From: Bacteroidales bacterium
Lineage (GTDB): Bacteria > Bacteroidota > Bacteroidia > Bacteroidales > Bacteroidaceae
DNA length: 34,452 bases
Direction of reading: 5' to 3'
NCBI GenBank assembly: GCA_022772475.1
Contig: JALEZQ010000096.1
Coordinates: 1 to 34,452, forward strand
Part shown: piece by piece, positions 3,836 through 31,833 of the stretch
Layout of the letters: each line of letters opens with the position of its first letter
Numbering within the stretch: the stretch's first letter is position 1
The notes under the pieces: generated by a model
The model's input: the letters and a program-made list of their open reading frames with translations, nothing else
Told to the model about the DNA's origin: nothing
Databases searched by the model: none
Translations under genes and position numbers: made by a program

Positions 3836-5350
3836 ATGGCATTATCCACTAACCAACAAATTAAAATTGGGGCCATCCTCTCATATACAGGTATAGCGAT
3901 ATATGTCTTGACCGGACTCTTATATACGCCCTGGATGATCAATGTAATAGGAAAAGAAGATTATGGTTTATACACGTTAGCCCATTCCATTACAGCATTT
4001 TTTATATTTGACTTTGGCTTTAGCGCAGCTATTCAGCGTTTTACGGCAAAATTCTTGGCAGAGGGCAAAATAGATAAAGTAAACAACTATTTAAGTATAG
4101 TTTATAGATTATATATCTTTATTGACATACTTATCTTTTTTGTCTTAGTGATAATGTTCTTTTGTATTCCATCCATTTATACAGCATTTACGGCCGAACA
4201 GATCGAGCGCTTGGAATATGTATTTATCATAGTAGGAATTTTTAGTGTCATATCCTTTCCGTTTATTCCATTGAATGGAATACTATCTGCACACGAAAAG
4301 TTCGTACAATTGAAAGGTTGCGATTTATTCTCAAAAACATTGACGGTACTGCTGTGTGTCGGGTGTTTGTATTTTGGTGGAGGCTTGTATGAAATCGTTA
4401 TAAGCACAGCTTTGGTCGGAATACTCGTAATGTTCATCAAATACAAAATAGTTAGACGAGAAACAAATATTACAATAGACATTGGCTATTACAATAAGAA
4501 ACAAATGAAGGACTTGCTATCGTTCTCCGGGTGGGTCACGGTAGTAGCTTTATGCCAGAGGTTTATTTTCAATGTAGCACCTACGATATTAGGGCTATTT
4601 GAAGGTGCGGGAGAAATTGGCGTACTGGGAATAGCTATATGCTTGGAATCTTATACATTCACATTTGCATTTGCGTTGAACGGATTGTTTATGCCTAAGG
4701 TTGCAAGGATCCTGAGTTCTGGAGGTGAGGTATTACCGCTTATGATACGAGTTGGGCGCATACAGATACTCATTATTGGCATGCTTCTTGTTGGGTTCAT
4801 ATCCATAGGTGCTGATTTTATTAATCTATGGTTAGGCCCTGAATATGATAAGGCGTTCTTGTGCACATTGCTTTTTATCATCCCTGCGTTTTTCCTTCAG
4901 CCGGCAGATATCGCAGACCAAACTTTGGTGGTGAGTGGCTTAGTCAAATATAGGGCTATGGTTTTTATCATAATGGCATGCGTGAATGTGATACTATCAA
5001 TAGTACTTACATGCTATTGGGGTATAATTGGTTTGGCCATCTCCATATTCGTTGCCTATATGATAAGAAATGTGGCCTTATACTATGTTTACTATGTGAA
5101 ACTACATATCAATATATGGCAGTTTTTTAAGGAAAGTTATGGGAAAATGATATGGGGTATAATGGCTGCTTTATGTATCTATCAGATTGTTTCGACCATG
5201 CTTGATGTTCCCGGCTGGTTCGGCTTAGGTATAAAGGTTGTGGTTGTTTCCTTTATTTATTTGGCTTGTATGCTTCTGCTTGCAATGAATGCTGATGAAA
5301 AGAAAATGTTGAAAAGAGCAGTCAATAGTATAACAATTCGTAGGGGTTAA
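3836..5350 (+). CDS. Wzx-type polysaccharide flippase (MOP superfamily)
   Basis: This 504-residue, strongly hydrophobic protein has about 12-14 predicted membrane segments. It starts with IKIGAILSYTGIAIYVLTGLLYTPWMINVIGKEDYGLY, a typical oligosaccharide-flippase N-terminus in which the first helix is followed by a GxxxYGLY-like turn (quoted pattern: IGKEDYGLY). It would move undecaprenyl-linked repeat units from the cytoplasmic to the periplasmic face of the inner membrane. It lies between a GT4 gene and a Wzy-like polymerase, the expected Wzx/Wzy context. The ATG at 3836 gives a short cytoplasmic tail before the first helix. Its sequence is AT-rich like its neighbours. Confidence 0.92.
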   Translation: MALSTNQQIKIGAILSYTGIAIYVLTGLLYTPWMINVIGKEDYGLYTLAHSITAFFIFDFGFSAAIQRFTAKFLAEGKIDKVNNYLSIVYRLYIFIDILIFFVLVIMFFCIPSIYTAFTAEQIERLEYVFIIVGIFSVISFPFIPLNGILSAHEKFVQLKGCDLFSKTLTVLLCVGCLYFGGGLYEIVISTALVGILVMFIKYKIVRRETNITIDIGYYNKKQMKDLLSFSGWVTVVALCQRFIFNVAPTILGLFEGAGEIGVLGIAICLESYTFTFAFALNGLFMPKVARILSSGGEVLPLMIRVGRIQILIIGMLLVGFISIGADFINLWLGPEYDKAFLCTLLFIIPAFFLQPADIADQTLVVSGLVKYRAMVFIIMACVNVILSIVLTCYWGIIGLAISIFVAYMIRNVALYYVYYVKLHINIWQFFKESYGKMIWGIMAALCIYQIVSTMLDVPGWFGLGIKVVVVSFIYLACMLLLAMNADEKKMLKRAVNSITIRRG

Positions 5351-5413
5351 CGCTGGTTAGTTCTCTCCTGTTTAGTGTGTTTACTCTTTATTTGTAAATT
5401 TCGTAGTCATAAA

Positions 5414-6598
5414 ATGATGCAGTTAGGTAAAGGTTTAGAGAATTCGATAATTCTTTACATCTTATTGTTTCTTGCTTGTATGAATTGTATGGGACAGGCA
5501 ACACTGTTCTTTTTGTTGTTTGATCTGTACGGATTATTTAGCATAAAGTTTAAGGGAAACGGTTCATCAAAGGATGTTTTATTATATTTCATGATAACCC
5601 TCAGTGCCTTTGTCACATCTTGTTTCCAGTATGAGTTCACGGAGGTAATAAAACCTATCGTAATCTTTTTTACCTTTTATGTCGCTTATTATGGGTATCA
5701 GGTGGTTGTAGATAAGGAGAAATTCATAAAGTATTTGGTATTTGCTGTGTTTGCGGGTTTCTTTGCGAACTTACTACTTACATATTATTTGAATTTCTAC
5801 GTTATCGGTCATGTGGTAGGCACTAGAGTCCTATACAATTATTGGACCCATGACGTAATAGCTGTCACATTGGTAGGTTTGATTTCAAGTGTGGTCATTG
5901 GTTACTCATTTTATTGCTTGTTTTGTCACCCGAGTCGCATAATGAAAATACTCGGTGTTGGTTGTATTCTTGTGGCTGCAAAGGTAAATATTGACACCGC
6001 AACACGAACTCCATTCGTGATATTGTTCGTGGTATATGCGGTGTTGTTATATGAACTATACAAACAAAGTAAATTAACACAAAAGGTCGGGTTGATATGC
6101 TTAGTGGTCCTTTTTGCTTCTGTCTTATTCCATTATTTATTGCCGCTTCTTTCAGACAGTGCAATCGCCAATCGTTTGAATGAAAGTGGACTGGAAACAT
6201 CTAGATGGGAGATTATGGAGTTTTATTTTAGCAGCTTATTGGATTATCCCATTGGAGGACATAATGTTTCCGCCATACTGCATAAAGAGGCTCATAATCT
6301 GTTATTCGAAGGATTTGACTACTATGGTGTCATATTCTTTGTATTGATGTTGATATTACAAGTAGTTATGATTTACAGATTATGGCTTCTGCATCGGATA
6401 AAGAATAAGACACGTATTGTGTTTTTGCTAATGGCTATGATGATAGCAGTCTATCTACAAAGTTGGGCTGAGCCAGTATTGGCAGGATATCCGCAATTGG
6501 CGTGGTCTATGTTTTTGTTTGATGGCCTGATTGCTGCTTATCTGAGAGATAAAGAGAATTGTAATGTCGTGCCTAATAGAGCCAATTCCATTCGTTGA
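5414..6598 (+). CDS. Wzy-like O-antigen/capsule polymerase
   Basis: The protein has about ten hydrophobic segments and a larger loop late in the sequence (about NESGLETSRWEIMEFYF through GGHNVSAILHKEAHNLLFEG). Polymerases and ligases of the Wzy/WaaL fold keep catalytic Arg/His residues in such a periplasmic loop, and the EAHNLLFE segment fits that pattern. It would join repeat units in the periplasm after flipping. I chose the ATG at 5414, giving about 394 residues. An in-frame GTG at 5375 would add 13 residues with charged, non-helical character and is less likely. The gene follows the flippase by about 60 bases and belongs to the same AT-rich block. Family assignment is from topology and position, as Wzy proteins share little sequence. 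Confidence 0.78.
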   Translation: MMQLGKGLENSIILYILLFLACMNCMGQATLFFLLFDLYGLFSIKFKGNGSSKDVLLYFMITLSAFVTSCFQYEFTEVIKPIVIFFTFYVAYYGYQVVVDKEKFIKYLVFAVFAGFFANLLLTYYLNFYVIGHVVGTRVLYNYWTHDVIAVTLVGLISSVVIGYSFYCLFCHPSRIMKILGVGCILVAAKVNIDTATRTPFVILFVVYAVLLYELYKQSKLTQKVGLICLVVLFASVLFHYLLPLLSDSAIANRLNESGLETSRWEIMEFYFSSLLDYPIGGHNVSAILHKEAHNLLFEGFDYYGVIFFVLMLILQVVMIYRLWLLHRIKNKTRIVFLLMAMMIAVYLQSWAEPVLAGYPQLAWSMFLFDGLIAAYLRDKENCNVVPNRANSIR

Positions 6599-6778
6599 TA
6601 CACGTCAAAGAGGTGTTGGCTCATAAGAGTGTTTTCTTATAGTTTATTCGTTACCTTTACGTGTTCGTGTTACTCTTTCGTCCCATTTGTATTGAATCTT
6701 CATTAGACAAATATCCCCCCAAGGTACGCATGTAAGGGATGGGTGTAACAGAATGTGTTTCAATATACTTTTGTAATA

Positions 6779-8020
6779 ATGAAAATCCTACAAGTAAATT
6801 GTGTATACCGCAAAGGGAGTACGGGCAAAATAGTCTTTGACATACATGCCGAGTTGCAGCGGAAAGGTGTGGCTTCTGTGGTGTGCTATGGAAGAGGAGA
6901 CAGGCTTGACGAGCCTAGTACTTACAAATTCTGTTCAGAAATAGAAGCCCATTTATCGCACCTGTGGGCAGAGTTGGGTGGATTGCAATATGCATCTGCT
7001 CCTATTGCTACATGGAGACTGAAACGGATTATTAAACGAGAGCAACCTAGTGTCGTTCACCTGCATTGCATTAACGGATATTGTGTGAATATATATAGTT
7101 TGTTACGTTTTCTGGCAGCACGCAAGATAAAGACTGTGGTGACACATCATGCTGAATTTTTCTATACAGGTAATTGTGGACATTCCATTCATTGCAAAAA
7201 ATGGATGTCTGCTGAAGGCTGCAATTCGTGTCACGACTTACGAGGCGCAACTGGTTCAAGAACAATTGATAACACGCATCGATCGTGGCAACTGATGCGA
7301 GATGCTTTTGCTGCTTTTGATAAGAATGACTTGTGTTTTACAGCTGTATCGCCATGGGTGGTTGAAAGGTTTAAGTTATCTGAAGTGTTAGCTAAATATC
7401 CTTGTTTGTATGTAACGAATGGAGTAGATCCATCAGTTTTTCATTACGTAGAGAATGCTACGCAATTATTGCAAGGAAAGCTTCCCGTTAGTGGCAGTGG
7501 TTTTGTCCTTCATGTGACAGCGTCGTTCTCTACGAGTGCAAAATCGATTAAAGGAGGGCGGTATATTGTGCAGTTGGCCCGCCTCATGCCCGAGCGGATG
7601 TTTGTGGTTGTGGCCTCACAAGTGCTTGCTGTTGAAAATCTGCCTGAAAATATATTGTTGTGGGGGCGTGCTAATGGACAGAAAGAATTAGCCGCTTTGT
7701 ATTCGGCTGCAGAAGCTACGGTGCTGGTGAGTGAGCGTGAGACTTTTTCAATGGTCACCGCCGAGAGCCTTTGCTGCGGAACGCCAGTCGTTGGTTTCAA
7801 GGCGGGAGGACCGGAAAGTATAGCCATACCTGAGTATACTGACTTTGTAGAATATGGCAAAGTGGAATGTTTGCGAGATGTTTTACTGGAAATGTTGGAA
7901 GTAAAGCATGACAAAAAACGAATCTCGGAAGAAGCAAAGAATCATTATTCACAAGAGGTTATGACTAATGCCTATATGAAAGTTTATAAATCAATGATAG
8001 AACACGATGAGAATGGATAG
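6779..8020 (+). CDS. Glycosyltransferase family 4
   Basis: The protein begins MKILQVNCVYRKGSTGKI, a common start of Bacteroidales capsule GT4 enzymes, so I place the start at the ATG at 6779 rather than the in-frame ATG at 6755, which would add eight unrelated residues. The GT-B fold is supported by VVHLHCINGY and VTHHAEFFYTGNCGH in the acceptor half and by the donor-site run SERETFSMVTAESLCCGTPVVG, which holds the E-x7-E motif, followed by GGPESI. A cysteine-rich stretch (HCKKWMSAEGCNSCHDL) is typical of this subgroup. It is cytosolic or membrane-associated and adds one sugar of the repeat unit. Its last 14 bases overlap the next gene. Confidence 0.9.
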   Translation: MKILQVNCVYRKGSTGKIVFDIHAELQRKGVASVVCYGRGDRLDEPSTYKFCSEIEAHLSHLWAELGGLQYASAPIATWRLKRIIKREQPSVVHLHCINGYCVNIYSLLRFLAARKIKTVVTHHAEFFYTGNCGHSIHCKKWMSAEGCNSCHDLRGATGSRTIDNTHRSWQLMRDAFAAFDKNDLCFTAVSPWVVERFKLSEVLAKYPCLYVTNGVDPSVFHYVENATQLLQGKLPVSGSGFVLHVTASFSTSAKSIKGGRYIVQLARLMPERMFVVVASQVLAVENLPENILLWGRANGQKELAALYSAAEATVLVSERETFSMVTAESLCCGTPVVGFKAGGPESIAIPEYTDFVEYGKVECLRDVLLEMLEVKHDKKRISEEAKNHYSQEVMTNAYMKVYKSMIEHDENG

Positions 8021-9308
8021 ACGTGTGTTAGTGCTCTCAAACAACTGTTTCTCGCCATCTAATTCCAATGGCCGTACGTTAGGCAACCTGTTCTTTGGCT
8101 GGCCAAAAGAGAATCTTGCGCAATTTTGCGTGATAGCAAAAGACCCAAACTGGGACCTCTGCGACAATTATTATTGTCTAGAGGATAGAGCCATGTTGAG
8201 AGCCTTTAAACATGGAGGGAAGGCTGTGGGGCGAAAACTTCAGCCTCCATCAGTCGTCAGAGAAGGAAACTCTGAATCTGTTGACACACAACGCAAGAAG
8301 ATGGGCAAAAAAACTTTGCCCAAAATTATCCTTCGCGAAATGGTGTGGGCCCGTAAGCGTTGGTGTAGTCGCGACTTTGAGCAATGGGTGGATGGGTTTA
8401 GTCCCGAAGTGGTTGTTCTGCAGTTTGGCGACTCGTCTTTTATGATAGACATAGCCCTGTATATATCAAAGTCGCGTCAAATACCGTTGGTGGTGTATAA
8501 CACAGAGGGGTATTATTTCTTCCCTCGTAATTGGCATTACCCCTCAAAGATAGACGCACTTATATTTCCAGCATATAGACGTTATTACCAAAAACGGGTA
8601 AGAAAGTTAATGGTTGCCGCAAGTCATTCTGTTTATCTGAATGAAAAGTTGCAGGAGGATTATGATGGTGTATTTGGCAATAAGTCTTCAGTCATATACA
8701 ATAGTAGTGGGTTGCAAGACAGTAGTGCCCCTACATTTGAGAAAGAGGTTCCACGGATATCATATTTAGGCAATCTCGGCTTAGACCGAGATACAGCACT
8801 GGTTGAGGTTGGTAAGGTGCTGTATGATTTAGATCATCGTTATCACATAGACATTTATGGCAATGCTGATGAGCGTGTTACCCAAACCTTGAACGAGGCT
8901 CAAGGAGTTGTCTTTCATGGAAGAGTCTCGTATGATAAAGTAAAAGAGGTGATAGCAGAGAGTGATATTCTATTTCATGTGGAGTCTGAACAAGGGTATA
9001 AGGAACGCCAGTTGCAATACGCCTTCTCTACCAAGATAGCCGACTCTGTTTCATCGGGTAAATGCTTCGTGCTGTATGCACCGAAAGAGTTGGCTTGCTC
9101 CAAATATATTATTGAGTCGGGGGCTGGATGGTTTGCTGATAGTCAGCTCAATCTGAAACAGGTGCTGGTCAATATTATTAATGATGATAAAGAAAGGCAG
9201 ATGGTCTTGGATAGAGCTAAGACTGTAGCCAAGCAAAATCATAGTTTGGAGGGAAATGCGAAAGAGTTTCAGAAGATACTGATGAACGTAGGTAAAACAG
9301 ATAATTAA
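8007..9308 (+). CDS. Glycosyltransferase (GT4-like, GT-B fold)
   Basis: This 433-residue protein opens with VLVLSNNCFSPSNSNGRTLG, a GT-B nucleotide-sugar enzyme N-terminus with the small-residue loop. The C-terminal half has ISYLGNLGLDRDTALVEVG, YHIDIYGNAD, VVFHGRVSYDKVKEVIAESDILFHVE and KIADSVSSGKCFVLYAP, matching the donor-binding half of GT4 enzymes although the usual E-x7-E is not obvious. The start codon lies inside the preceding gene (14-base overlap), so the two are probably translationally coupled. Base composition is intermediate (mid-40s % GC). Sugar specificity is unknown. Confidence 0.85.
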   Translation: MRMDRRVLVLSNNCFSPSNSNGRTLGNLFFGWPKENLAQFCVIAKDPNWDLCDNYYCLEDRAMLRAFKHGGKAVGRKLQPPSVVREGNSESVDTQRKKMGKKTLPKIILREMVWARKRWCSRDFEQWVDGFSPEVVVLQFGDSSFMIDIALYISKSRQIPLVVYNTEGYYFFPRNWHYPSKIDALIFPAYRRYYQKRVRKLMVAASHSVYLNEKLQEDYDGVFGNKSSVIYNSSGLQDSSAPTFEKEVPRISYLGNLGLDRDTALVEVGKVLYDLDHRYHIDIYGNADERVTQTLNEAQGVVFHGRVSYDKVKEVIAESDILFHVESEQGYKERQLQYAFSTKIADSVSSGKCFVLYAPKELACSKYIIESGAGWFADSQLNLKQVLVNIINDDKERQMVLDRAKTVAKQNHSLEGNAKEFQKILMNVGKTDN

Positions 9309-9323
9309 AGATTTTGCAACGAT

Positions 9324-9537
9324 ATGAGTGATGCCCCTCATACCGCTATAGGTTCTTGGTCAGGTTACATTTGATGACATCAATTTTTGGGGGCTGATTG
9401 AAACCATTCGTCATGAGTTCCATGATTATAACCTGTTTTTGTCTACGCACGAAGATAATTATGCAAGTCTTTTGAGATACAAATTTGCAAATCTTGGTAT
9501 TCCTGCGAAGACCTACGATATGAAGAATCAACGATAG
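9324..9537 (+). pseudogene. Fused remnant of a probable ABC-three-component defence operon
   Basis: Two coding scraps in different frames abut. The first (ATG at 9324 to TGA at 9372-9374) reads MSDAPHTAIGSWSGYI, which resembles the N-terminus of ABC-3C C-terminal-domain proteins (AIGSWSGYIYQG pattern). The second, open from just after a TAG at 9349-9351 to TAG at 9535-9537, contains FDDINFWGLIETIRHEF and FLSTHEDNYASLLRYKF. That matches the end of an SMC/RecN-like ABC ATPase: the D-loop region after Walker B, then the H-loop STHED. The two frames overlap on the same 12 bases, CAGGTTACATTT, consistent with a deletion at a microhomology. Family names are recalled patterns. The region could otherwise be a remnant of any SMC-like ATPase operon. 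Confidence 0.55.
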
Positions 9538-9546
9538 ATCATAACT

Positions 9547-10356
9547 ATGAAAATTTCAGTAATTATCCCGACATACAAGCCACAGGCGTATCTTTGGGAA
9601 TGTTTGGATTCGCTGGTTGCGCAAACCTTCTCGAAGGAAGATTTTGAGATTATATTGGTGCTCAATGGTTGTACTGAGCCATGGAAGAGCCAGATACAGG
9701 AATATATCTACTCCAAGATGAAAGGTATGAATGTGAAGTTCATTCATACCGAGCAAGGTGGCGTGAGCAATGCTAGAAACATGGGGCTTGATGCGGCTGA
9801 GGGGGAGTATATTGCATTCATTGACGACGATGACTATGTGTCTTCGCGCTACCTTGAACTTTTGTTTGAAAAGACGTCGGATGATACCATCCCTCTTTGC
9901 TACCCGCTGTCGTTTGTGGATGGCGATGATAAATATGAGCCATATTATATTACATCACATTATCACGATACCCCAGGGAAATTGGATTTCATAAAGGCCA
10001 GAAGATTTTTCGCAGGTCCTGTATATAAGTTGATAAGTAAGCACGTTATCGGGCAACGACGCTTTAATTCAAAATTTAGAAATGGAGAGGACTCTCTCTT
10101 TATGTTTCTTCTTTCCGATAGGTTCAAGTTCGTAGAATTTGCAGACAAAGAGGCTATTTATTATCGTCGGTTTAGGCGGAACTCTGCCACTACAGTTCGT
10201 AGAAGTCGTAAGCAGATTATTGCAAATGAACTGAAAAGAGATTGGGTGGTGACCAAGATATATTTTTCAAATCCATTCAGATATAGACTGAAGTTTTACA
10301 TTACGAATCTTTTAGGCTCAATGCACACAATGATTGCGCCAATAAAGAATGTGTAA
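9547..10356 (+). CDS. Glycosyltransferase family 2 (GT-A fold)
   Basis: This 269-residue enzyme starts MKISVIIPTYKPQAYLWECLDS, the standard GT2 opening. It has GGVSNARNMGLDAAEGEYIAF and the metal-binding acidic cluster IDDDDYV at residues 92-98. EDSLFMF later supplies the likely catalytic acidic residues, and a C-terminal YYRRFR segment is typical of capsule GT2 proteins. No membrane helix is evident. The gene starts 9 bases after the preceding gene remnant, so the remnant lies directly in its leader. It is AT-rich like the genes to its left, and a sharp rise in GC follows at about 10,400. Confidence 0.9.
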   Translation: MKISVIIPTYKPQAYLWECLDSLVAQTFSKEDFEIILVLNGCTEPWKSQIQEYIYSKMKGMNVKFIHTEQGGVSNARNMGLDAAEGEYIAFIDDDDYVSSRYLELLFEKTSDDTIPLCYPLSFVDGDDKYEPYYITSHYHDTPGKLDFIKARRFFAGPVYKLISKHVIGQRRFNSKFRNGEDSLFMFLLSDRFKFVEFADKEAIYYRRFRRNSATTVRRSRKQIIANELKRDWVVTKIYFSNPFRYRLKFYITNLLGSMHTMIAPIKNV

Positions 10357-10380
10357 AGTGTTTACTCAAATTCTTTGATC

Positions 10381-10927
10381 ATGAGCAAAATATTCATACG
10401 TGGGGGGGGGTATTTTGGCCACCCTCTACCACTGGACGCATCCCCATGTGCCGGAAGAGAAGATACCGTATTGGTTCAAACGGTCCATCGTCGGTGAGTT
10501 ATGGCACCTGATTAGGAAAGGGATATGTCAGAACATCGCGCCAAACTGTGTGCTGACGCCGGTGCGGATTGGACTTTACAGGCTGTGCGGATTCAAGATT
10601 GGCAAGGGGTGCTTCATCGGCATGAAGTGCTACCTTGACGCCTTGTGCGTGGACAAGATTGTGATCGGCAACCATGTAACGATAAGTTATGGCGTCTATT
10701 TCGCCTGTCATGGCAGGAAGCAGGGGCACAACCGCATCGTCATCAAGGACGGGGCGTACATCGGTATGAGGGCAAACATTACTGCGCGCCACGACTTGGA
10801 GATAGGCGCGGACGCTGTGGTGGGCGCGGGCACCCTGGTGAACAAGAGCGTCCCTGACGGCGCGACTTGTGTGGGCGTGCCCGGACGATTGATAACTTGT
10901 TGTCCGCCATGTGAGGTTGAGGGATGA
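10381..10927 (+). CDS. Hexapeptide-repeat acetyltransferase with poly-G at the start
   Basis: The main body shows left-handed beta-helix hexapeptides: FKIGKGCFIGMKCYL, KIVIGNHVTISYGVYF, RIVIKDGAYIGMRANIT and LEIGADAVVGAGTLVNKSVPDGATCVGVPGRLI. This is a CatB/LacA/WbbJ-like O-acetyltransferase that probably acetylates a sugar in the cytosol from acetyl-CoA. The N-terminal segment TLYHWTHPHVPEEKIPYWFKRSIV is typical of capsule members. The start is unclear. An ATG at 10381 runs into nine Gs (10402-10410), is out of frame and stops at 10495-10497. With one G fewer (or two more) it joins the main frame. In the present sequence the main frame is open only from a GTG at 10400 overlapping the tract. 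Slippage at the tract could therefore switch expression. Confidence 0.82.
10402..10410 (+). repeat. Nine-G homopolymer in the 5' end of an acetyltransferase
   Basis: Nine consecutive Gs lie seven codons after an ATG (10381) and place it out of frame with the hexapeptide protein. Eight or eleven Gs would restore a full frame. This geometry fits slipped-strand phase variation; a sequencing error in the tract is the alternative. Confidence 0.85.
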
Positions 10928-11037
10928 TTTTCCGCCACACTTCAGTCCGCTGAGAGACGTGTCTTATTGAGATGATTTTCGGCATAGTACATTGACCTTT
11001 GACTGGAGAGCATTAGCATCTATTATTGACGAGACAA

Positions 11038-12120
11038 ATGACGAAAAGTCTGTTCTTTGACCTTATCCGTGTGGCGATAGGGCGGCAGGAGCGGATGTCC
11101 TGCGCGCCGTCGCGGGACGACTGGGAGGCGCTGTTTGCCATGGCCGAAAAGCAGGCGCTGATGGGCGTGTGCTTTGCCGGCGTGTGCAGGCTGCTCAGGC
11201 TGGGCGCCGACGTGCCCACGGACGTCTATATGAAGTGGCTCGCCGTGGCCGCGAACATTCAGCAGCGCAACGAACTGCTGAACCGCGGGTGCGTCAAAGT
11301 GCAGCAACTGCTGGCCGAGGAGGGTATGACGTCGTCCATCCTCAAAGGGCAGGGCGTGGCGTGCCTCTATCCCGAACCTTTGCGGCTATTGCGCCAGAGC
11401 GGCGACATCGACGTTTATGTGCCGTGCGGCATGACGAAGGCCATGGCCTATGCGCAGCGCAAATATGGCAAGGTGGACTACGACTACATCAATGCGCACG
11501 TCCCCATGCTGCGGGGCGTGGAGGTAGAGCTCCACTGGCGCGTGCAGGCCATGAGCAACCTGTTCCGCAACCGCCGGCTGCAACGGTGGCTGGAACGCGA
11601 GGAGACGAAGAGGGCCATTATGGGCGGCAAGGCTACGTTGCCCAACGGTCAGGTCATCGCCGTACCCACCGATGCCTTCAATGCGTTTTACATGATGCTG
11701 CACGCCTATAATCATGAGTTCTCCAGCGGACTGGGTCTGCGTCAACTGATGGACTACTATTTCCTGTTGGTCCACCGTGACGCCCGCCTCGACGCCGAGG
11801 TCAACGCCTTGTTCAAAGCGTTTGGTATGCAGCGGTTTGCCCGGGGCGTGATGTGGATTATGCAGGAAGTGTTTGGGCTGGAGCGTGAGCGCCTGTTGTG
11901 TGAGCCCGACGAGAAGGAGGGACGATTTGTTCTCGGCGAGGTGATGATGGGCGGCAATTTTGGCCACCACGACGAGCGGATAAAGACGGTGGGGCGCGGC
12001 AAGTGGCAGTCGATATTCGCCAGTTTGCAGCACGCCACCCACGTACTGAGCCGTCACCCATCCGAGGCCCTATGGATGCCCGTGTGGATGGTGTACCATT
12101 TTATTTGGAAAAGGATTTGA
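11038..12120 (+). CDS. Nucleotidyltransferase-fold family protein (PF14907-like)
   Basis: This protein of about 360 residues matches my memory of the uncharacterised nucleotidyltransferase family (NTP_transf_5). It has QRNELLNRGCVKVQQLLAEEGM, then ILKGQGVACLYPEPLRLLRQSGDIDVYV, with a GD-D-type metal site, and VEVELHWRV as the third acidic position. HAYNHEFSSGLGLRQLMDYYF follows. Members occur in capsule and lasso-peptide-type loci; the substrate is unknown. The ATG at 11038 is preferred to an in-frame TTG at 11026. The gene is GC-rich (about 58%), unlike the AT-rich block before 10,360. It follows the acetyltransferase by 110 bases and may be cotranscribed. Confidence 0.8.
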   Translation: MTKSLFFDLIRVAIGRQERMSCAPSRDDWEALFAMAEKQALMGVCFAGVCRLLRLGADVPTDVYMKWLAVAANIQQRNELLNRGCVKVQQLLAEEGMTSSILKGQGVACLYPEPLRLLRQSGDIDVYVPCGMTKAMAYAQRKYGKVDYDYINAHVPMLRGVEVELHWRVQAMSNLFRNRRLQRWLEREETKRAIMGGKATLPNGQVIAVPTDAFNAFYMMLHAYNHEFSSGLGLRQLMDYYFLLVHRDARLDAEVNALFKAFGMQRFARGVMWIMQEVFGLERERLLCEPDEKEGRFVLGEVMMGGNFGHHDERIKTVGRGKWQSIFASLQHATHVLSRHPSEALWMPVWMVYHFIWKRI

Positions 12121-12346
12121 CGCCCTTTCCCCTCGTGGAAAAACCTGTTTTCGCGGTTTGAAAAGATTTGGGGGAGTATCGGAATTATTCCCAAGGGCTG
12201 TGAATACGATTCCCAAGGCAGCTGTGTTTTTTGTTCGCGTCTCGGCAGTGCGCATAGGCACGGCTGTCTATTATGAAGGGCAAAAGATTTTGGGGAATAG
12301 CAATTTGAAATAAGGATAAGTAGTAATCATATTAATTACAAATCAG
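12121..12346. other. Intergenic spacer with a short direct repeat
   Basis: No gene is seen. A short near-direct repeat, ATTCCCAAGGGCTGTG at 12187-12202 and ATTCCCAAGGCAGCTGTG at 12209-12226, lies mid-spacer. The last 60 bases are AT-rich and probably hold the promoter of the dehydrogenase gene, but I see no full TTG/TAnnTTTG pair. Confidence 0.4.
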
Positions 12347-13102
12347 ATGATAAACGTTGGAATTATTGGATGTGGCTTCGTTGGCGGAGCCCTGAAGGAT
12401 TGGTTGGAACACAACAATCCGGAGTGCAAACTGTTCATCAGCGACCCCGCAAAGGGGTATAACGATGATATGTCTCAAATCGACATTGCCTTCCTGCAAA
12501 TCCATGTGCCGACAGAAGATGACGGCACGCAGGATTTGACGCTCATGAAGGAGCTGATAACGAACCTTCCCGATGTGCCCGTGTTCGTTCGGACGACCAT
12601 CCTGCCGGGCACAAGCGATTGGCTTTCGCGTGAAACAGGCCATAAGGTACACTACATGCCGGAGTTTCTTACTGAGCGCACGCATATTGAGGACTTCAAG
12701 AAGCAGACGATGGTGTTCACCGGCGCTCACGAACTGCTGACCAATATCTTCGTAGGCAAGAAGTTCACCGTGATGAGCCCGTTAGAGGCTGAACTGACCA
12801 AGTATATGCACAACGTGTTTGGCGCATATAAGGTGACCTATTTCAATGCCTGCCGTGAGTATTGCGAGCAGATGGGCGGTGACTGGCGGAAGGTGCACAC
12901 AGGCATGCTGCTATCGGGCTACATCAATGACACACATACCTACGTTCCCGGTCCGGACGGTAAGTTTGGCTATGGCGGCAAGTGCTTCCCCAAGGATGTG
13001 AACGCCTTTGCCAAAATGACGAAGGGCACGCCGCTCGGCACCCTGCTTGAGCACCTGCACGAGTTGAACGTCCATTTCCGTGGTTTCGAAGAGCACATTT
13101 AG
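12347..13102 (+). CDS. Short UDP-glucose/GDP-mannose dehydrogenase-family protein
   Basis: The 251-residue protein has the Rossmann motif GCGFVG (residues 8-13) and the family's central helix signature SPLEAELTKYMHNVFGAYKVTYFNA. The catalytic-cysteine loop YGGKCFPKD places Cys at about 213. These are hallmarks of nucleotide-sugar dehydrogenases that oxidise the C6 alcohol to a uronic acid with two NAD+. Typical enzymes are 390-450 residues with a C-terminal UDP-binding Rossmann domain; that domain is absent here because the frame ends 39 residues after the cysteine. The natural stop and lack of downstream homologous coding suggest a true short form, not a recent frameshift. Activity is uncertain. 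Confidence 0.82.
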   Translation: MINVGIIGCGFVGGALKDWLEHNNPECKLFISDPAKGYNDDMSQIDIAFLQIHVPTEDDGTQDLTLMKELITNLPDVPVFVRTTILPGTSDWLSRETGHKVHYMPEFLTERTHIEDFKKQTMVFTGAHELLTNIFVGKKFTVMSPLEAELTKYMHNVFGAYKVTYFNACREYCEQMGGDWRKVHTGMLLSGYINDTHTYVPGPDGKFGYGGKCFPKDVNAFAKMTKGTPLGTLLEHLHELNVHFRGFEEHI

Positions 13103-13191
13103 TGATGTTATAACCGGTAAGCACGTGCACAGGTGGAGCAACGGCTTATGGTTCGATACCATCACGTGCTTCAGTCAAAAAACGAAAAGGT

Positions 13192-14196
13192 ATGTTGTCA
13201 GTAATTGTTCCGATTTATAACGAAGAGAAATACATTGCCAAGTGCATAGATTCCATCTTGGAGCAGGATTATCCCAAAGATGATATGGAGCTGCTCCTCT
13301 GCGATGGAATGAGCAAGGACCGCACCCGCGAAATCATAGCAGAGTACCAGAAGAAGTACCCCTGGATTCAGCTGTTGGACAATCCCGACCGCATTGCCCC
13401 CTGTGCTATGAACGTGGGGATAAAGGCTTCGAAGGGCGATGTGATTATGCGATTGGATGCGCATGTATGCTATCCAACAAACTATTTTTCAATGCTTGTT
13501 AGAAAATTGAACGAACTACATGGGGCAGAGAATGTCGGTGCGGTGTGCAATACACTTCCCGTAAATGATACGCTCACGGCTCAGAGCATTGCAGCAGTGC
13601 TGAGCAGTAGTTTCGGTATGGGAAACTCACATTTTCGTGTTGGTGCAGACAAAGAGATGGAAGTTGATACAGTGCCTTTTGGGTGCTTCCACAGGAGTGT
13701 TTTTGATAAAGTCGGTCTTTACGATGAAGAACTGGTGCGAAACCAAGACGACGAGCTGAATGCACGTATTATAAAAGCAGGAGGCAAGATATATTTGATT
13801 CCCCAACTTGTTTGTGAGTACTATGCACGAGATACGGCGAAGAAAGTATATAAGATGTTTTATCAATATGGTGTGTTCAAGCCGCTGGTAAACAAGAAAC
13901 TAGGTAGTCCGGCTACAGTACGTCAGTTCTTCCCATTGTTTTTCGTGATGGGGTTACTGACTGGACCAATAGTGTCTTTGTTCCTGCCTGTATTATGGTG
14001 GATATATCTTGCTGTAATCCTGCTGTGGCTATTGTGTGCAACCTATTTCTCTCTTAAAGATTCAAAAAGTCCTAGGCGCATTCTGATGCAGAATTGGATT
14101 TATTTTGTTGTCCATTTTGGATATGGTTGGGGATATATTGTAGGCATATATAAACTATTGTTCCACCGTCCATTTGTTGCCCAGGTAAATAGATAA
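13192..14196 (+). CDS. Membrane-anchored glycosyltransferase family 2 (ExoA-like)
   Basis: The 334-residue protein opens LSVIVPIYNEEKYIAKCIDSILEQDYP and has LLLCDGMSKDRTREI. The metal-binding MRLDAHVCYP lies near residue 89 and YDEELVRNQDDELNARI follows; the last acidic/basic group is the usual catalytic ED/QxxRW-like region. Near residues 240-290 are two hydrophobic helices (FFVMGLLTGPIVSLFLPVLW, then WIYLAVILLWLLCATYF), followed by another near the end, so it is anchored in the inner membrane like succinoglycan ExoA. The 5' 280 bases are richer in GC than the rest, which may mark a recombination join. The ATG at 13192 gives the standard N-terminus. Confidence 0.9.
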   Translation: MLSVIVPIYNEEKYIAKCIDSILEQDYPKDDMELLLCDGMSKDRTREIIAEYQKKYPWIQLLDNPDRIAPCAMNVGIKASKGDVIMRLDAHVCYPTNYFSMLVRKLNELHGAENVGAVCNTLPVNDTLTAQSIAAVLSSSFGMGNSHFRVGADKEMEVDTVPFGCFHRSVFDKVGLYDEELVRNQDDELNARIIKAGGKIYLIPQLVCEYYARDTAKKVYKMFYQYGVFKPLVNKKLGSPATVRQFFPLFFVMGLLTGPIVSLFLPVLWWIYLAVILLWLLCATYFSLKDSKSPRRILMQNWIYFVVHFGYGWGYIVGIYKLLFHRPFVAQVNR

Positions 14197-14200
14197 GGTC

Positions 14201-14795
14201 TCACCCCGCAAACCCATCCGTCAGGAACATACGCAGATGGAGGTGCGTAATGCCGTCATGATTGGCAGAGCGCAGCATGGGGGTGGCGGAGATAGGCGTC
14301 GCTGATGGCCTGCAAGGCGCCAAACTCGCGATTGGACGTGGCGTCGCTGTTGATGATCCATGCCACCTGAACATAGATGCGCTGATTGGGACGGGTGCAT
14401 ACGAAGTCGATTTCTCCTGCACGCAACTGTCCGACGGTGACGGTATAGCCAAAGTGCAGAAGGTGGTGGTAAACAACGTTCTCGATGACTTTCTCGATGT
14501 CCGTCTGATGCTCGCCGCCAACATTGTAATTGCGCAGGCCGACATCGCCAAAATAGGTCTTTCCCGTAGATTCCAGCAGTTTTTTGCCATGAATGTCGTA
14601 GCGGCCCACGGCGCTGGTGAGGAACGCCTCGTTGAAGAAGGACATGTAGTTGAGGACCACATTGGTGGAGACGTCAAGGCCCCGCGACTTCATGTACTTG
14701 GCAATGCTGCTTGTGGAGTTGATTTTGCCTGTGGTGTCGGCTATGAAACTGATGAAAATACAGCACGATGAGGTTTTGTTGCGTATGGACAACAA
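14201..14795 (-). pseudogene. Broken DUF4143/AAA_14 ATPase, C-terminal part
   Basis: The minus-strand translation includes FIADTTGKINSTSSIAKYMKSRG, then NEAFLTSAVGRYDIHGKKLL, GDVGLRN, IEKVIENVVYHHLL and VGQLRAGEIDFVC. That is the characteristic DUF4143 half of the AAA_14 ATP-binding family. The whole N-terminal P-loop domain is missing. The beginning (residues about 6-14) looks frame-shifted. Near 14262 the frame shifts again, so the normal ending (HDGITHLHLRMFLTDG) lies in the other frame and stops at 14201-14203. With two probable frameshifts and no ATPase domain the gene is dead. Intact members often sit near toxin-antitoxin or accessory genes, as here. Confidence 0.85.
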
Positions 14796-14819
14796 AATTG
14801 GACAGCGCCGGCGGGCTTT

Positions 14820-15122
14820 CTACCCGTCGATGTGTCTTAAAGATTCATTCATCTTTTTCCCATAGGCTTCGCCACGGCTGACGATATACCTGAAAAAGAC
14901 TGTATCTTCAACGATTTCTATGTGAAAAGTGAAGAACGCCCTGTAGTCGCCAATTCGAATGCGGTAAACGTTTCGATAACCGACAAGTTTCTTGCAGTCG
15001 GTGATGTCTTTGATATTTTCAGCGTTTCTGACTTCCTTAATAACGTCACGGACGGCCTCAAGCATCTTGCCGGAAAACTTTCTTACGGACTTTTCGAAGT
15101 CCTTTGAGAAATCTATATTCAT
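14820..15122 (-). CDS. RelE/ParE-family toxin
   Basis: This protein of about 100 residues includes SKDFEKSVRKFSGKM, KLVGYRNVYRIRIGDYRAFFTF and FFRYIVSRGEAYGK, matching the RelE/ParE/YafQ-type toxin fold: a small alpha/beta protein with conserved RxRIGDYR. The ATG at 15122 overlaps the antitoxin stop as ATGA, so this start is preferred to the upstream in-frame ATG at 15134. RelE members cut mRNA in the ribosome and ParE members poison gyrase; the sequence does not tell which applies. It is the second gene of a two-gene minus-strand operon. Confidence 0.88.
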   Translation of the reverse strand: MNIDFSKDFEKSVRKFSGKMLEAVRDVIKEVRNAENIKDITDCKKLVGYRNVYRIRIGDYRAFFTFHIEIVEDTVFFRYIVSRGEAYGKKMNESLRHIDG

Positions 15123-15373
15123 ACGCCAAGCCACTTCTCAAAGTCGGCCTTTTCTTGCTGATTGAGCTTAACATTGCCTTCGGGGCGCTCCTTGCAGAGT
15201 TTGGTGTAAAGTCTTGAGTCCTCATAACTTTTTGCAATGTCAGAAAGGAGGTGCTCAATAAAGTTTTTGAGATTAGTGCCTTCCTCAGTAGCCATGATGG
15301 AAAGCATGTTGAAGGTAGCGTCATCAAGATTGATAATCTTTCGTTTGGATGGTGATAGTGTCGTAGTCTTCAT
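15119..15373 (-). CDS. Antitoxin partner of the RelE/ParE toxin
   Basis: The 84-residue protein has the run KRKIINLDDATFNMLSIMA followed by NLKNFIEHLLSDIA, resembling a ribbon-helix-helix or similar DNA-binding N-terminal half. The C-terminal half is charged and presumably wraps the toxin (EKADFEKWL at the end). It overlaps the toxin gene by 4 bases (ATGA), the classic order antitoxin then toxin. A well-formed TTG-N20-TATCTTTG promoter lies just upstream on the same strand. Such antitoxins usually repress their own promoter; no clear operator is visible. Confidence 0.85.
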   Translation of the reverse strand: MKTTTLSPSKRKIINLDDATFNMLSIMATEEGTNLKNFIEHLLSDIAKSYEDSRLYTKLCKERPEGNVKLNQQEKADFEKWLGV

Positions 15374-26256: not shown

Positions 26257-28029
<1,773 letters not shown>

Positions 28030-28167
28030 GTACCATGTATGGCCGTGCAGGGTGAAAATGGGACTGCCAGTACGTCAGACCTGCCATTTGCATCCTGTCA
28101 CTTTTGCCGTTGGCACACAATTTGCCTAATGCGCCGTTGAACGACTTGACCAAAAACAACCTAAGCA

Positions 28168-28788
28168 ATGAACGAAAAAGACATAGACATGCAGGCTGCC
28201 GCCCCCGAGGCCGCCGAGACCCCCAACAATCAGGACGTACAAACCGAGGCCGCCGCACAGGAGGCTGACGCCACACAGGAAGAGGCCGGCGCACAAGAAG
28301 AGGCCGGCGTACAGGCTCCTGCCGAAAAGACCGACGCCGAAAAACTGGCCGAGGCCGAAGCCACCATCGCCGCGCTGCGCGACCAGATGCTGCGTCAGAT
28401 GGCCGAGTTTGACAACTTCCGTAAACGCACCATCAAGGAGAAAGCCGAACTCATCCTCAGCGGTGGCAGCCGTGTGCTGGAAAGTCTGCTCCCCGTTATG
28501 GACGACCTGGAGCGCGCACAGGACAACATGGCCAAAGCCAGCGACGTCGAGACGCTGCGCGAAGGCGTGGACCTCATCATGCAGAAACTCATGAAGACCC
28601 TCGAGGCCAATGGACTGAAGAAAATGGACCCCCGGGGCGTAGCCTTCGACACCGACTTTCACGAAGCCATCGCCCTGACACCCGCCGCCGACGAGGCACA
28701 GAAAAACCACGTCATCGACTGCGTGCAGGCGGGCTATATGCTCAACGATAAGGTGCTGCGCCACGCCAAAGTGGTGGTGGCACAGTAA
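28168..28788 (+). CDS. grpE: Nucleotide exchange factor GrpE
   Basis: The 206-residue protein has an acidic, alanine-rich N-terminal tail (about 1-55) and a coiled-coil segment with LRDQMLRQMAEFDNFRKRT. The C-terminal beta-domain pattern LESLLPVMDDLERAQ and MDPRGVAFDTDFHEAI follows, close to the GrpE signature. It releases ADP from DnaK in the cytosol. It precedes dnaJ by 114 bases, a standard Bacteroidota grpE-dnaJ pair. A near-match to a -7 box (ACAATTTG, about 28,118) lies upstream, but no HrcA/CIRCE element is seen. Confidence 0.95.
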   Translation: MNEKDIDMQAAAPEAAETPNNQDVQTEAAAQEADATQEEAGAQEEAGVQAPAEKTDAEKLAEAEATIAALRDQMLRQMAEFDNFRKRTIKEKAELILSGGSRVLESLLPVMDDLERAQDNMAKASDVETLREGVDLIMQKLMKTLEANGLKKMDPRGVAFDTDFHEAIALTPAADEAQKNHVIDCVQAGYMLNDKVLRHAKVVVAQ

Positions 28789-28902
28789 TGGCAGACGGTG
28801 CATGCCGCCAGCCCACACGGCACCAACCGCCGGTTCGCCACCCGCAGTAGGGTGGGGCGCACGACGGCCTGCTGAGAGACAAACAGAAACGTACAGATAG
28901 TT

Positions 28903-30069
28903 ATGGCAGAAGAAAAAGATTACTATAAGATACTCGGTGTGGACAAGAACGCCACGCCCGAGCAGATAAAGAGCGCCTACAAGAAGGTGGCCATCAAGTA
29001 CCACCCCGACCGCAACCCCGGCGATAAGGAAGCCGAAGAGAAATTCAAGGAGGCGGCCGAAGCCTATGACGTGCTCAGCGATGCCGACAAGCGTGCCCGC
29101 TACGACCAGTTTGGCGCAGCCGGCGTCAATGGTGCAGGCGGATTCGGTGGATTCGGCGGCCAGGGCATGGATATCAACGACATTTTCAGCCATTTCGGCG
29201 ACATCTTCGGCGATATGGGCTTCGGCGGCTTTGGCGGCTTCGGCGGCGGACGACGTCAGGGCGGTCGGCCCGTATATAAGGGCGGCGACCTGAAGATGAA
29301 AGTCAAACTGTCGTTGGCCGAGATTGCCACAGGCGTCACCAAGAAATTTAAGGTGCGCAAGGACGTGGTCTGCAACCACTGTCATGGCAGCGGCTGTGCC
29401 GACGGCCATCAGCCCGAGACCTGCCAGACCTGTCACGGCACGGGCTACGTCGTGCGCAACCAGCGCACTATGCTCGGCATGGTGCAGACCCAGCAGCCCT
29501 GTCCCACCTGCCAGGGCGAAGGCACCGTGGTCAAGGACAAGTGTACCCACTGCCACGGCGAGGGCATCGTCAAGGGCGAGGAAATCGTCGAGATAAAGAT
29601 TCCCGCCGGCGTGTCAGAAGGCATGGTGGTCAACGTGCCCGGCAAGGGTAATGCCGGACGCCGCGGTGGCGTCAACGGCGACATCCAGGTCTTTATCGAA
29701 GAAGAACCCCATCCCGACTTCATCCGCGACGAGACCGACCTTATCTATAACCTGCTGCTCACCGTGCCCCAGGCCATCCTCGGCGACACCGTCGAGATAC
29801 CCACCATCGACGGCCGTGCCCGCATCAAGATAGCCCCGGGTACACAGCCCGGCACCGCCCTGCGCCTGCGCGGCAAGGGACTGCCCGCCGTACAGGGCTA
29901 CGGCTACGGCACGGGCGACATCGTGGTGAACATCAGCGTCTATATTCCCGAGAATATCTCGGCAGAAGAGCGCAAGGCCGTAGAGAAACTGCGCGATGGC
30001 AAGAGTATGGAGCCCACCACGTCCATCAAGGAGAAAATCTTCAAGAAATTCAGAAACTACTTCAGTTGA
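28903..30069 (+). CDS. dnaJ: Chaperone protein DnaJ
   Basis: The 388-residue protein has a J domain ([25 protein letters not shown]) with HPD at 34-36 and a Gly/Phe-rich stretch (about 80-125). Four zinc repeats CxxCxGxG lie at about 157-220 ([32 protein letters not shown]), followed by the C-terminal substrate-binding domains. It stimulates DnaK ATPase and delivers unfolded clients. It lies downstream of grpE on the same strand and is full length. Confidence 0.97.
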
Positions 30070-30244
30070 CCCACTGAGGCATACAGGCGGACAACAGGCC
30101 GATGACGGCCGCCCATCGTGGCGGTCCACTTCAGCCGGTTGTCCGCTTGCTTTTCCCCTTCTTTCTATACCGCCCTTTCGCATCCTCCTGCCACCATCCC
30201 CTTCTCCTCTTTACCCTTCTCTTTTCTCCTCTTCCTCATCCCCC

Positions 30245-31546
30245 ATGACCTACGAAGAAACCGTTGCCTATCTCTATGCCAGTGCGCCGCTCTTTCAGCA
30301 AGTGGGCGGCGCAGCCTATAAAGAGGGACTCTCTACCACGCATCTGCTGGATGCCCATTTCCATCACCCCCATCGCCAATATACCACCATCCACGTGGCC
30401 GGCACCAACGGCAAAGGCTCATGTGCCCACACGCTGGCCGCCATGTGTCAGGCCGCCGGTCTGCGCACGGGCCTATATACTTCGCCGCACCTTGTCGATT
30501 TTCGCGAACGCATCCGTGTGAACGGGCAGATGATACCCCGCGAGGCCGTCGTCCGCTTCGTTGAGGACGAGCGCGCCTTCTTCGAGCCCCTCCATCCCTC
30601 GTTCTTCGAACTGACCACGGCCCTTGCCCTGCGCTATTTCGCCGAGGAGCAAGTCGATGTGGCCGTCGTCGAAGTGGGACTTGGCGGCCGCCTCGACTGC
30701 ACCAACATCATCACGCCCGCCCTGAGCATCATTACCAACATCAGTCTGGACCATACCCAGTTTTTGGGCCATACCCTCGCGGCCATCGCCGGCGAGAAGG
30801 CCGGCATCATCAAGGCAGGTGTGCCCGTCGTGGTGGGCGAGGCTCTTGACGCCACGCGCCCTGTCTTTGCAAGTCGCGCCGCCGAGGTCGGTGCCCCCAT
30901 CACTTTCGCTGAAGATTGCCTCGAGGTGCCGGGTTCGCACATTGGCGAGGACGGCCTGCACCACTATGATACCTGCCACTTCGGTCCGCTTGTGGGGCAA
31001 CTGACCGGCGACTGCCAGACGCATAACGCCAATACCATCCTCACTGCCGCCCGTCTGCTCTCCGCGCAGGGGCTGTTGCCAAAGGACGAGGCACTGCGGC
31101 AAGTGGTGCGACAGGCCTTCCGCCACGTCTGCGATATGACCGGTCTGATGGGCCGCTGGCAGGTGGTGAGCCATCGTCCCCTCGTGGTCTGCGATACGGG
31201 GCATAACATCGGCGGCTGGCAGTATCTGGGCCGGCGTATGGGCAGTGGCGAGTGGCCGCAGGTGCACATCGTTTTCGGCATGATGGCCGACAAAGACGTG
31301 GACCATGTGCTCGCACTGATGCCCCCGACGGCCCGCTACTACTTTACGCAGGCCAGCGTGCGACGCTCTATGGACGCGGCGACATTACAGGGCTACGCAC
31401 AGGGTCATGGCCTCATTGGCGACACTTTCGCCGCCGTGCCCGACGCTGTGGCCGCCGCCTTGGCCCAGGCCGCACCGGATGACCTCGTCTTCATCGGCGG
31501 CAGTACCTTCGTCGTGGCCGACTATCTCGCCGCATGTCAAGGATAG
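30245..31546 (+). CDS. folC: Folylpolyglutamate/dihydrofolate synthase FolC
   Basis: The 433-residue Mur-ligase-family protein has the P-loop HVAGTNGKGS (about 50-59), the TSPHLVDFRERI region and VVEVGLGGRLDCTN. NISLDHTQFLGHTLAAIAGEKAGIIK and the C-terminal domain motif CDTGHNIGG also match FolC. It adds glutamate to folates using ATP and may also form dihydrofolate. The ATG at 30245 gives the usual start (MTYEETVAYLY); the longer frame upstream is the shadow of the dnaJ 3' end. It follows dnaJ by 175 bases, and the spacer is C/T-rich on the plus strand with no gene. Confidence 0.95.
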   Translation: MTYEETVAYLYASAPLFQQVGGAAYKEGLSTTHLLDAHFHHPHRQYTTIHVAGTNGKGSCAHTLAAMCQAAGLRTGLYTSPHLVDFRERIRVNGQMIPREAVVRFVEDERAFFEPLHPSFFELTTALALRYFAEEQVDVAVVEVGLGGRLDCTNIITPALSIITNISLDHTQFLGHTLAAIAGEKAGIIKAGVPVVVGEALDATRPVFASRAAEVGAPITFAEDCLEVPGSHIGEDGLHHYDTCHFGPLVGQLTGDCQTHNANTILTAARLLSAQGLLPKDEALRQVVRQAFRHVCDMTGLMGRWQVVSHRPLVVCDTGHNIGGWQYLGRRMGSGEWPQVHIVFGMMADKDVDHVLALMPPTARYYFTQASVRRSMDAATLQGYAQGHGLIGDTFAAVPDAVAAALAQAAPDDLVFIGGSTFVVADYLAACQG

Positions 31547-31833
31547 CCCTGTACTTCGGAGGCCGTTAAGGGCCGCCGTGCCTGACATGAATAGCCTTTC
31601 GTGGCAGAATAATATGCGAAAGAGAGAAAGGGTGTTGCAAAACATACTTTTCTCTCTTTGTCGTTTGAGGGGAAATGGCTAATTTGCGCTGGTTTTTTAT
31701 GGGACGCCCCTGTGCGCCCTTTACGAAAGACACACTCACACATCCCACAACCTGGCAACGGCGCACGCCGGCGCAGCCCTTGCATCCCGAAGGTGCGACA
31801 TCGGTGCAGACGTTGCATAAATCTAATAGCGAC

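Follow-up and report, generated by a model that had tools for sequence, protein, structure and literature searches.

A remnant of a three-gene ABC-3C operon, probably left by an internal deletion, in a polysaccharide locus of a Bacteroidales bacterium

The stretch of DNA that was analysed (the window) comprises 34,452 nucleotides and is contig 84 (JALEZQ010000096.1) of a Bacteroidales assembly of 2.38 Mb in 104 contigs, 86.8% complete (GCA_022772475.1). The interval 9324-9537 sits in what we read as a polysaccharide locus of the capsule type, with a gene resembling flippases (Polysacc_synt, 3836-5350), a sub-threshold match to a polymerase/ligase (Wzy_C, 5375-6598), genes for glycosyltransferases, one for a hexapeptide acyltransferase and one for an NTP_transf_5 protein. 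It is flanked upstream by a GT4-like gene (glycosyltransferase group 1; 8007-9308, forward strand; Pfam PF13524, E 3e-6) and downstream by a glycosyltransferase family 2 (GT2) gene (9547-10356, forward strand; Pfam PF00535, E 8.2e-27), the GT4-like stop codon (9306-9308) and the GT2 start (9547) being separated by 238 bases. These bases hold two coding fragments, named here scrap 1 and scrap 2, with the packed spacing of an operon: the ATG of scrap 1 lies 15 bases past the GT4 stop, and the stop codon of scrap 2 lies 9 bases ahead of the GT2 gene, which shares its reading frame with scrap 2. No repeat of 10 bases or more was found at 9200-9620, and at 9200-9650 terminator-like sites were absent and promoter-like sites were no more numerous than in shuffled sequences.

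Scrap 1 (9324-9374, forward strand) opens with an ATG at 9324, reads MSDAPHTAIGSWSGYI over 16 codons and ends in a TGA at 9372-9374, an in-frame stop that would be due to the deletion joint described below. It appears to represent the start codon and first 16 codons of a first gene of the ABC-3C/Lamassu type, as indicated by a 10-column weight matrix whose source was the N-termini of ten intact first genes only. With this matrix, TAIGSWSGYI scored 22.6 bits, the highest value among the 50,317 stop-free 10-mers in the six frames of the window (runner-up, 13.7), and the top score in 60 Markov-1 resamples of the window was 16.8. The 16 surviving residues fit the N-terminal motif of the ten intact first genes, which in the opened plasmid operons takes the form [ST][WY][SNE]G[YF]xYQG; the effector domain and the CTD region are not among them. 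By tblastn, scrap 1 had no match in plasmids, as expected at such a length, and gave E 5.5 against the first gene of the nearest intact operon (L062), being too short to stand alone; nothing was found in Pfam up to E 10 or in PADLOC.

Scrap 2 (9364-9537, forward strand) is in a frame different from that of scrap 1. Positions 9364-9534 encode VTFDDINFWGLIETIRHEFHDYNLFLSTHEDNYASLLRYKFANLGIPAKTYDMKNQR (57 residues) and are followed by a TAG at 9535-9537, which would make it the last 56 or 57 codons and the stop of a third gene, encoding an SMC/Rad50-like ATPase of the LmuB kind. Its parts are what we take to be a D-loop, the switch His (STHE) and then a C-terminal tail. In one single comparison, the L062 ATPase was identical to scrap 2 at 30 of 48 residues (E 3e-20), the aligned end of that protein reading ...DDPIQTIDDINFWGLMETLRHEFKDHFMLLSTHESNYEQLLDYKF... 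From the D-loop Thr to the stop there are 56 residues in scrap 2 and 56-61 in the ten intact ATPases, and, starting at the Walker B Gln, six intact ATPases agree in 13 columns, of which scrap 2 keeps 11. PADLOC rendered three matches to scrap 2 up to E 10, all of them to LmuB models (best E 7.8e-4), while Pfam was empty up to E 10 and NCBIfam gave one weak, unrelated match (E 0.05). The two fragments that the original prediction had reported here are therefore both readable in the sequence and score above chance. Its expectation that they would match ABC-3C families was borne out by the matrix and by the 30 of 48 residues shared with the L062 ATPase, not by plain tblastn of scrap 1.

Ten intact operons were used for comparison, namely six from plasmids, L062 and three from the same class, and all were kept. 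The sample is not random, each operon having been found through its resemblance to the scrap, to CTD1 or to another of the ten. The plasmid operons come from a tblastn search with scrap 2, which had matches in 67 of the 72,556 plasmid records with a limit of E 10, at least three of these matches being weak (H2, H7 and H25; E 1-2). Six of the 67 records were opened (Enterobacter, Pseudoalteromonas, Monoglobus, Catenovulum, Cetobacterium and Klebsiella), and in every one the match was the C-terminus of an AAA-family ATPase gene located after an annotated ABC-3C middle component 1. The first gene is annotated as an ABC-3C system protein in five of them and as hypothetical in the sixth (L047), with no Pfam match. 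The nearest intact operon, L062, belongs to the same order and is made up of three overlapping genes that Pfam identifies as encoding a CTD1 protein, an MComp1 protein and an SMC_N ATPase; CTD1-type ABC-3C operons look rare in the order, PF20276 (CTD1) being found in one of 393 genomes (L062, 5103-9223). The L062 ATPase rendered three more ATPases at E 1e-20 among 395 genomes of the phylum, from one genus of the same class and each in a three-gene operon (one is flagged with one TGA, yet its gene is open over 774 residues). Against plasmids, the same query matched 56 records at E 1e-30, with identities that stayed under 60%.

The order first gene, middle component, ATPase is common to the ten intact operons, as is a middle gene of 214-283 residues, identified by Pfam as MComp1 in the three cases tested. 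CTD1 was found in four of the five first genes tested with Pfam, and two of the five had matches to the Cap4 nuclease under the curated cut-off. PADLOC assigned the first gene of L062 to LmuA and the third to LmuB, leaving the middle gene without a family; the three intact relatives tested came out as LmuA plus LmuB, with LmuC in one of two middle genes tested. None of the ten operons lies in a capsule setting, as judged from the annotation for six and from our own reading of the frames for four.

Scrap 2 was also used as a protein query elsewhere. Among 200 relatives, only the source genome itself gave a match at E 0.01, and in 399 genomes of the family the matches were weak, the best outside the source genome having E 2e-4; at a limit of E 10 they extended to 98 genomes, the source genome included. 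Four of the five best family matches outside the source genome (the fifth being G260) were judged by reading their frames, without a family search, and none belonged to an ABC-3C operon: that in G344 is in an ATPase gene after a DUF262-like gene, that in G406 is inside a glycosidase-like frame, and those in G331 and G362 are opposite unrelated genes. Several other family matches belong to frames, 1,240-1,290 residues long, that are met repeatedly in different genomes and could presumably encode chromosomal SMC-type proteins. In phage records, five weak protein matches (E 3-8) were judged to be due to chance and no DNA match was found, and scans of viral contigs rendered no confirmed locus.

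The joint between the two fragments was placed at ACATTT (9367-9372, forward strand) from the conserved residues of both genes. In the original prediction it had been described as a 12-base match, CAGGTTACATTT, present in both genes. This sequence does sit at 9361-9372, but a 12-base repeat is not supported by the codon ahead of the D-loop Thr/Ser, which is GTT (Val, 9364-9366) in the interval and encodes Gln in ten of ten intact ATPases; the GTT bases are hence more likely to come from gene 1 (GGT TAC). The same residue closes the DDPxQ motif (Walker B, with Gln for Glu) of the ten intact ATPases, and since the joint lies there, the Val reflects the loss and is not evidence on ancestry. Where the frame of scrap 1 turns to TGA, the first genes have Tyr (nine of ten) or Phe (one), whose codons start with T. 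ACATTT is compatible with both ancestral genes and was probably the longest stretch that they shared, of at most 6 bases, although the ancestral bases of the joint are not readable because the nearest intact ATPase is only 63% identical over 48 residues. Six or more shared bases would be expected at about 1 in 750 random joints (hand estimate, equal base frequencies), and a microhomology-mediated deletion is plausible. As for its size, the points equivalent to the joint are 3,860-4,646 bases apart in the ten intact operons. What is absent is the main part of gene 1, the ATPase half with the P-loop and the middle component; a tblastn search of the window with the L062 middle gene gave nothing up to E 10. 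No other match to the L062 ATPase was found at E 1 in the source genome (86.8% complete) or in that of Prevotella sp. SUG549, only the one at the interval.

That second genome comes from a scan of genome contigs that rendered 49 pattern matches and one confirmed locus (L061), which has the same joint and the same two flanking genes. It is hardly conceivable, with the same joint in a second assembly, that the scar is an assembly error. The locus is part of a block of ca. 6.7 kb common to both genomes (window 6775-13491, forward strand; L061 6650-13346), with 96.3% identity by blastn. The GT4 genes are identical at 1296 of 1302 bases (99.5%), the stretch 9309-9371 at 63 of 63 and scrap 2 at 171 of 174 (3 substitutions), and the GT2 genes show 95.6% identity. 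Over 250-base steps the identity is a mosaic of 79-100%, with 99-100% falling to 79-90% and back, and it is 99.6-100% at 8901-9400, which spans the joint. The block has its edges near the start of a GT4-like gene (6755-8020) and inside a GT2 gene (13192-14196). Outside it, L061 is matched by six scattered pieces of 37-798 bases at 75-89%, and window positions 26269-33993 match the SUG549 genome at 66-75% in pieces of at least 200 bases. The contrast between 96.3% in the block and 66-75% elsewhere suggests that the two genomes belong to different species and that the block bearing the scar was exchanged, so that the scar itself appears to have passed from one species to another.

An intact operon at this position was not found in the genomes searched. 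When the DNA of the scar was compared with the 200 relatives, only matches of 25-32 bases, taken as chance, appeared beyond the source genome, in nine genomes. The DNA from GT4 to GT2 had matches in five others of 58 genomes of the genus and, at E 1e-20, in two others of 339 genomes of the family, all within or at the edge of GT2 (the three genome sets overlap), and no match in plasmid DNA. By DNA, the GT4 gene was met only in the source genome and in SUG549. At the loci of GT2 homologues in six genomes (G003, G001, G041, G227, G025 and G049), neither the L062 proteins nor scrap 2 gave a match better than E 0.4. The original prediction had suggested that relatives may carry the intact operon between the GT4 and GT2 genes; none does among those searched, and the only other genome with the locus carries the same scar. 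Formally this is the outcome that would refute the prediction, but it comes from a shortage of informative relatives and not from relatives with an undisturbed empty site. The claim on the slot comes instead from the anatomy, with the gene 1 start 15 bases after GT4 and the gene 3 end 9 bases before GT2, from which it is likely, but unproven, that an intact operon once sat in this very slot.

The fragments resemble the start of the first gene and the end of the third gene of one operon, they stand in the right order and orientation and in the phases of the respective genes, and a second species has the same joint. We therefore consider it very probable that one internal deletion in a three-gene ABC-3C operon of the CTD1/MC1 type (Lamassu superfamily) left 9324-9537 as its remnant. 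Such an operon would have consisted of an LmuA-like first gene, an LmuC-like middle component and an LmuB-like ATPase of the SMC/Rad50 type. A single deletion of ca. 4 kb, which we infer to have taken place in the capsule locus by means of microhomology, would have taken out gene 1 beyond codon 16 or so, all of the middle gene and the part of the ATPase gene that precedes the D-loop, joining the ends out of frame, perhaps at the 6-base match ACATTT. The original prediction, in which the scraps were the first and last genes of one ABC-3C operon joined as after an internal deletion, fits the order and orientation observed, and its interpretation, partly supported as it is, appears mostly right.

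It can also be the case that the deletion took place elsewhere and that the scrap, already dead, was recombined into the capsule locus, so that no intact operon ever lay between these glycosyltransferase genes. This is unlikely, but it is in keeping with the clear signs of interspecies exchange in the block that bears the scar and with the fact that none of the ten intact operons opened was found among capsule genes. Against it stand the packed operon spacing on both sides (15 and 9 bases) and the extra step needed to bring in a scrap of 0.2 kb that runs precisely from the gene 1 start codon to the gene 3 stop codon. Two separate recombinations, one leaving the start of an ABC-3C operon at GT4 and the other its end at GT2 with no single internal deletion, would agree with the mosaic of the block; this course of events is nevertheless quite improbable, given that the fragments correspond to both ends of one operon, correctly ordered and oriented, with one joint and nothing between them, and that the near-identity to SUG549 at 8901-9400 includes the joint.

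Still less probable is that the scrap has been taken into use, e.g. as a leader or an N-terminal extension of the GT2 enzyme. In SUG549, the stop codon TAG of scrap 2 reads TGG, and a 305-residue frame runs from a TTG through the scrap into GT2 (L061 9239-10231); in the window, however, the TAG is present and GT2 has an ATG of its own. Two of the three codon changes in scrap 2 alter the product, three being too few for a test, and the GT2 homologues of the six genomes align from residue 1 of the GT2 of the window, scrap 2 having no match better than E 1.7 in the stretches compared (which, for some of the genomes, include little upstream sequence). Finally, a chance resemblance or an assembly artefact, which the mere 16 residues of scrap 1 might suggest, can practically be dismissed in view of a matrix score that neither the rest of the window nor the resamples come near, of the E 3e-20 of scrap 2 and of the same joint in two assemblies that differ around it.

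Taking the deletion of an ABC-3C operon as the preferred explanation, the scar can be called a well-supported gene fossil; the system is of a known kind, not a new one. It shares with ABC-3C operons of the CTD1 (PF20276) plus MComp1 (PF20289) type, such as L062, L050 (Catenovulum) and L052 (Klebsiella plasmid), the N-terminal motif of gene 1, the stretch of gene 3 from the D-loop to the C-terminus, the gene order and the orientation. In contrast to them, it misses ca. 4 kb and has no middle component, CTD1 or ATPase head, and it is non-functional because the P-loop, the coiled coil, the signature motif, Walker B and nearly all of gene 1 are gone. The LmuB models, the only ones matched in PADLOC up to E 10, relate it to the Lamassu superfamily (LmuA/LmuB/LmuC; DdmABC of Vibrio cholerae). 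Wadjet (JetABCD; SMC core plus JetD nuclease) came into consideration only through the wording SMC/RecN-like of the original prediction.

In the review PMC10586767, ABC-3C is counted in the Lamassu superfamily, whose systems are described as made up of a Rad50/SMC-like ATPase, which likely senses aberrant DNA, and an effector that varies, and as believed to work through abortive infection. The C-terminal Walker B of LmuB is said there to have generally Gln for Glu; unlike such systems, the scar is a remnant only and this Gln has been lost at the joint, where it has Val. By analogy with the family and the literature, the role of the ATPase in the intact system would have been to detect aberrant or foreign DNA, and that of the effector to kill or arrest the infected cell; that the lost first gene carried a nuclease effector is a fair guess, no more. 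No such scar is described in the listed titles and starts of abstracts of open-licence PMC papers, and one may be in print elsewhere.

In itself, this would be the unremarkable loss of a known system. Fossil genes of defence operons are easily missed, since fragments of this length obtained few or no matches in the family libraries used here; in the present case, the ends of the operon, the joint and the presence in a second species inside a shared capsule block are all readable from the sequence. The remnant may persist as a passenger of a capsule block that moves between species. More tentatively, it is conceivable, although doubtful, that the capsule loci of Prevotella-like bacteria are exchange cassettes that carried a complete Lamassu-type operon, the scar being the trace that stayed after the costly defence half was deleted. 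If this were true, a change of surface (receptor) and an intracellular defence that senses DNA would have moved together between species. Should intact copies be met in capsule cassettes, it could be tested whether surface identity and intracellular defence move jointly.

Some further features of the window were observed. A run of nine G (10402-10410, in window 10381-10430; seven G in L061, 10275-10281) is a candidate phase-variation tract, located just 3' of an ATG that is out of frame with the hexapeptide acyltransferase gene (10400-10927). Ahead of the capsule genes, positions 746-2182 encode a P-loop ATPase of the Sll1717 family (NF047389, E 1.8e-78), with no match in PADLOC. Antiparallel within the capsule locus, at 14256-15373 on the reverse strand, there are a DUF4143 fragment, a ParE-like toxin gene just under the Pfam cut-off and a small gene before the toxin, which are perhaps further mobile or broken genes of this locus.
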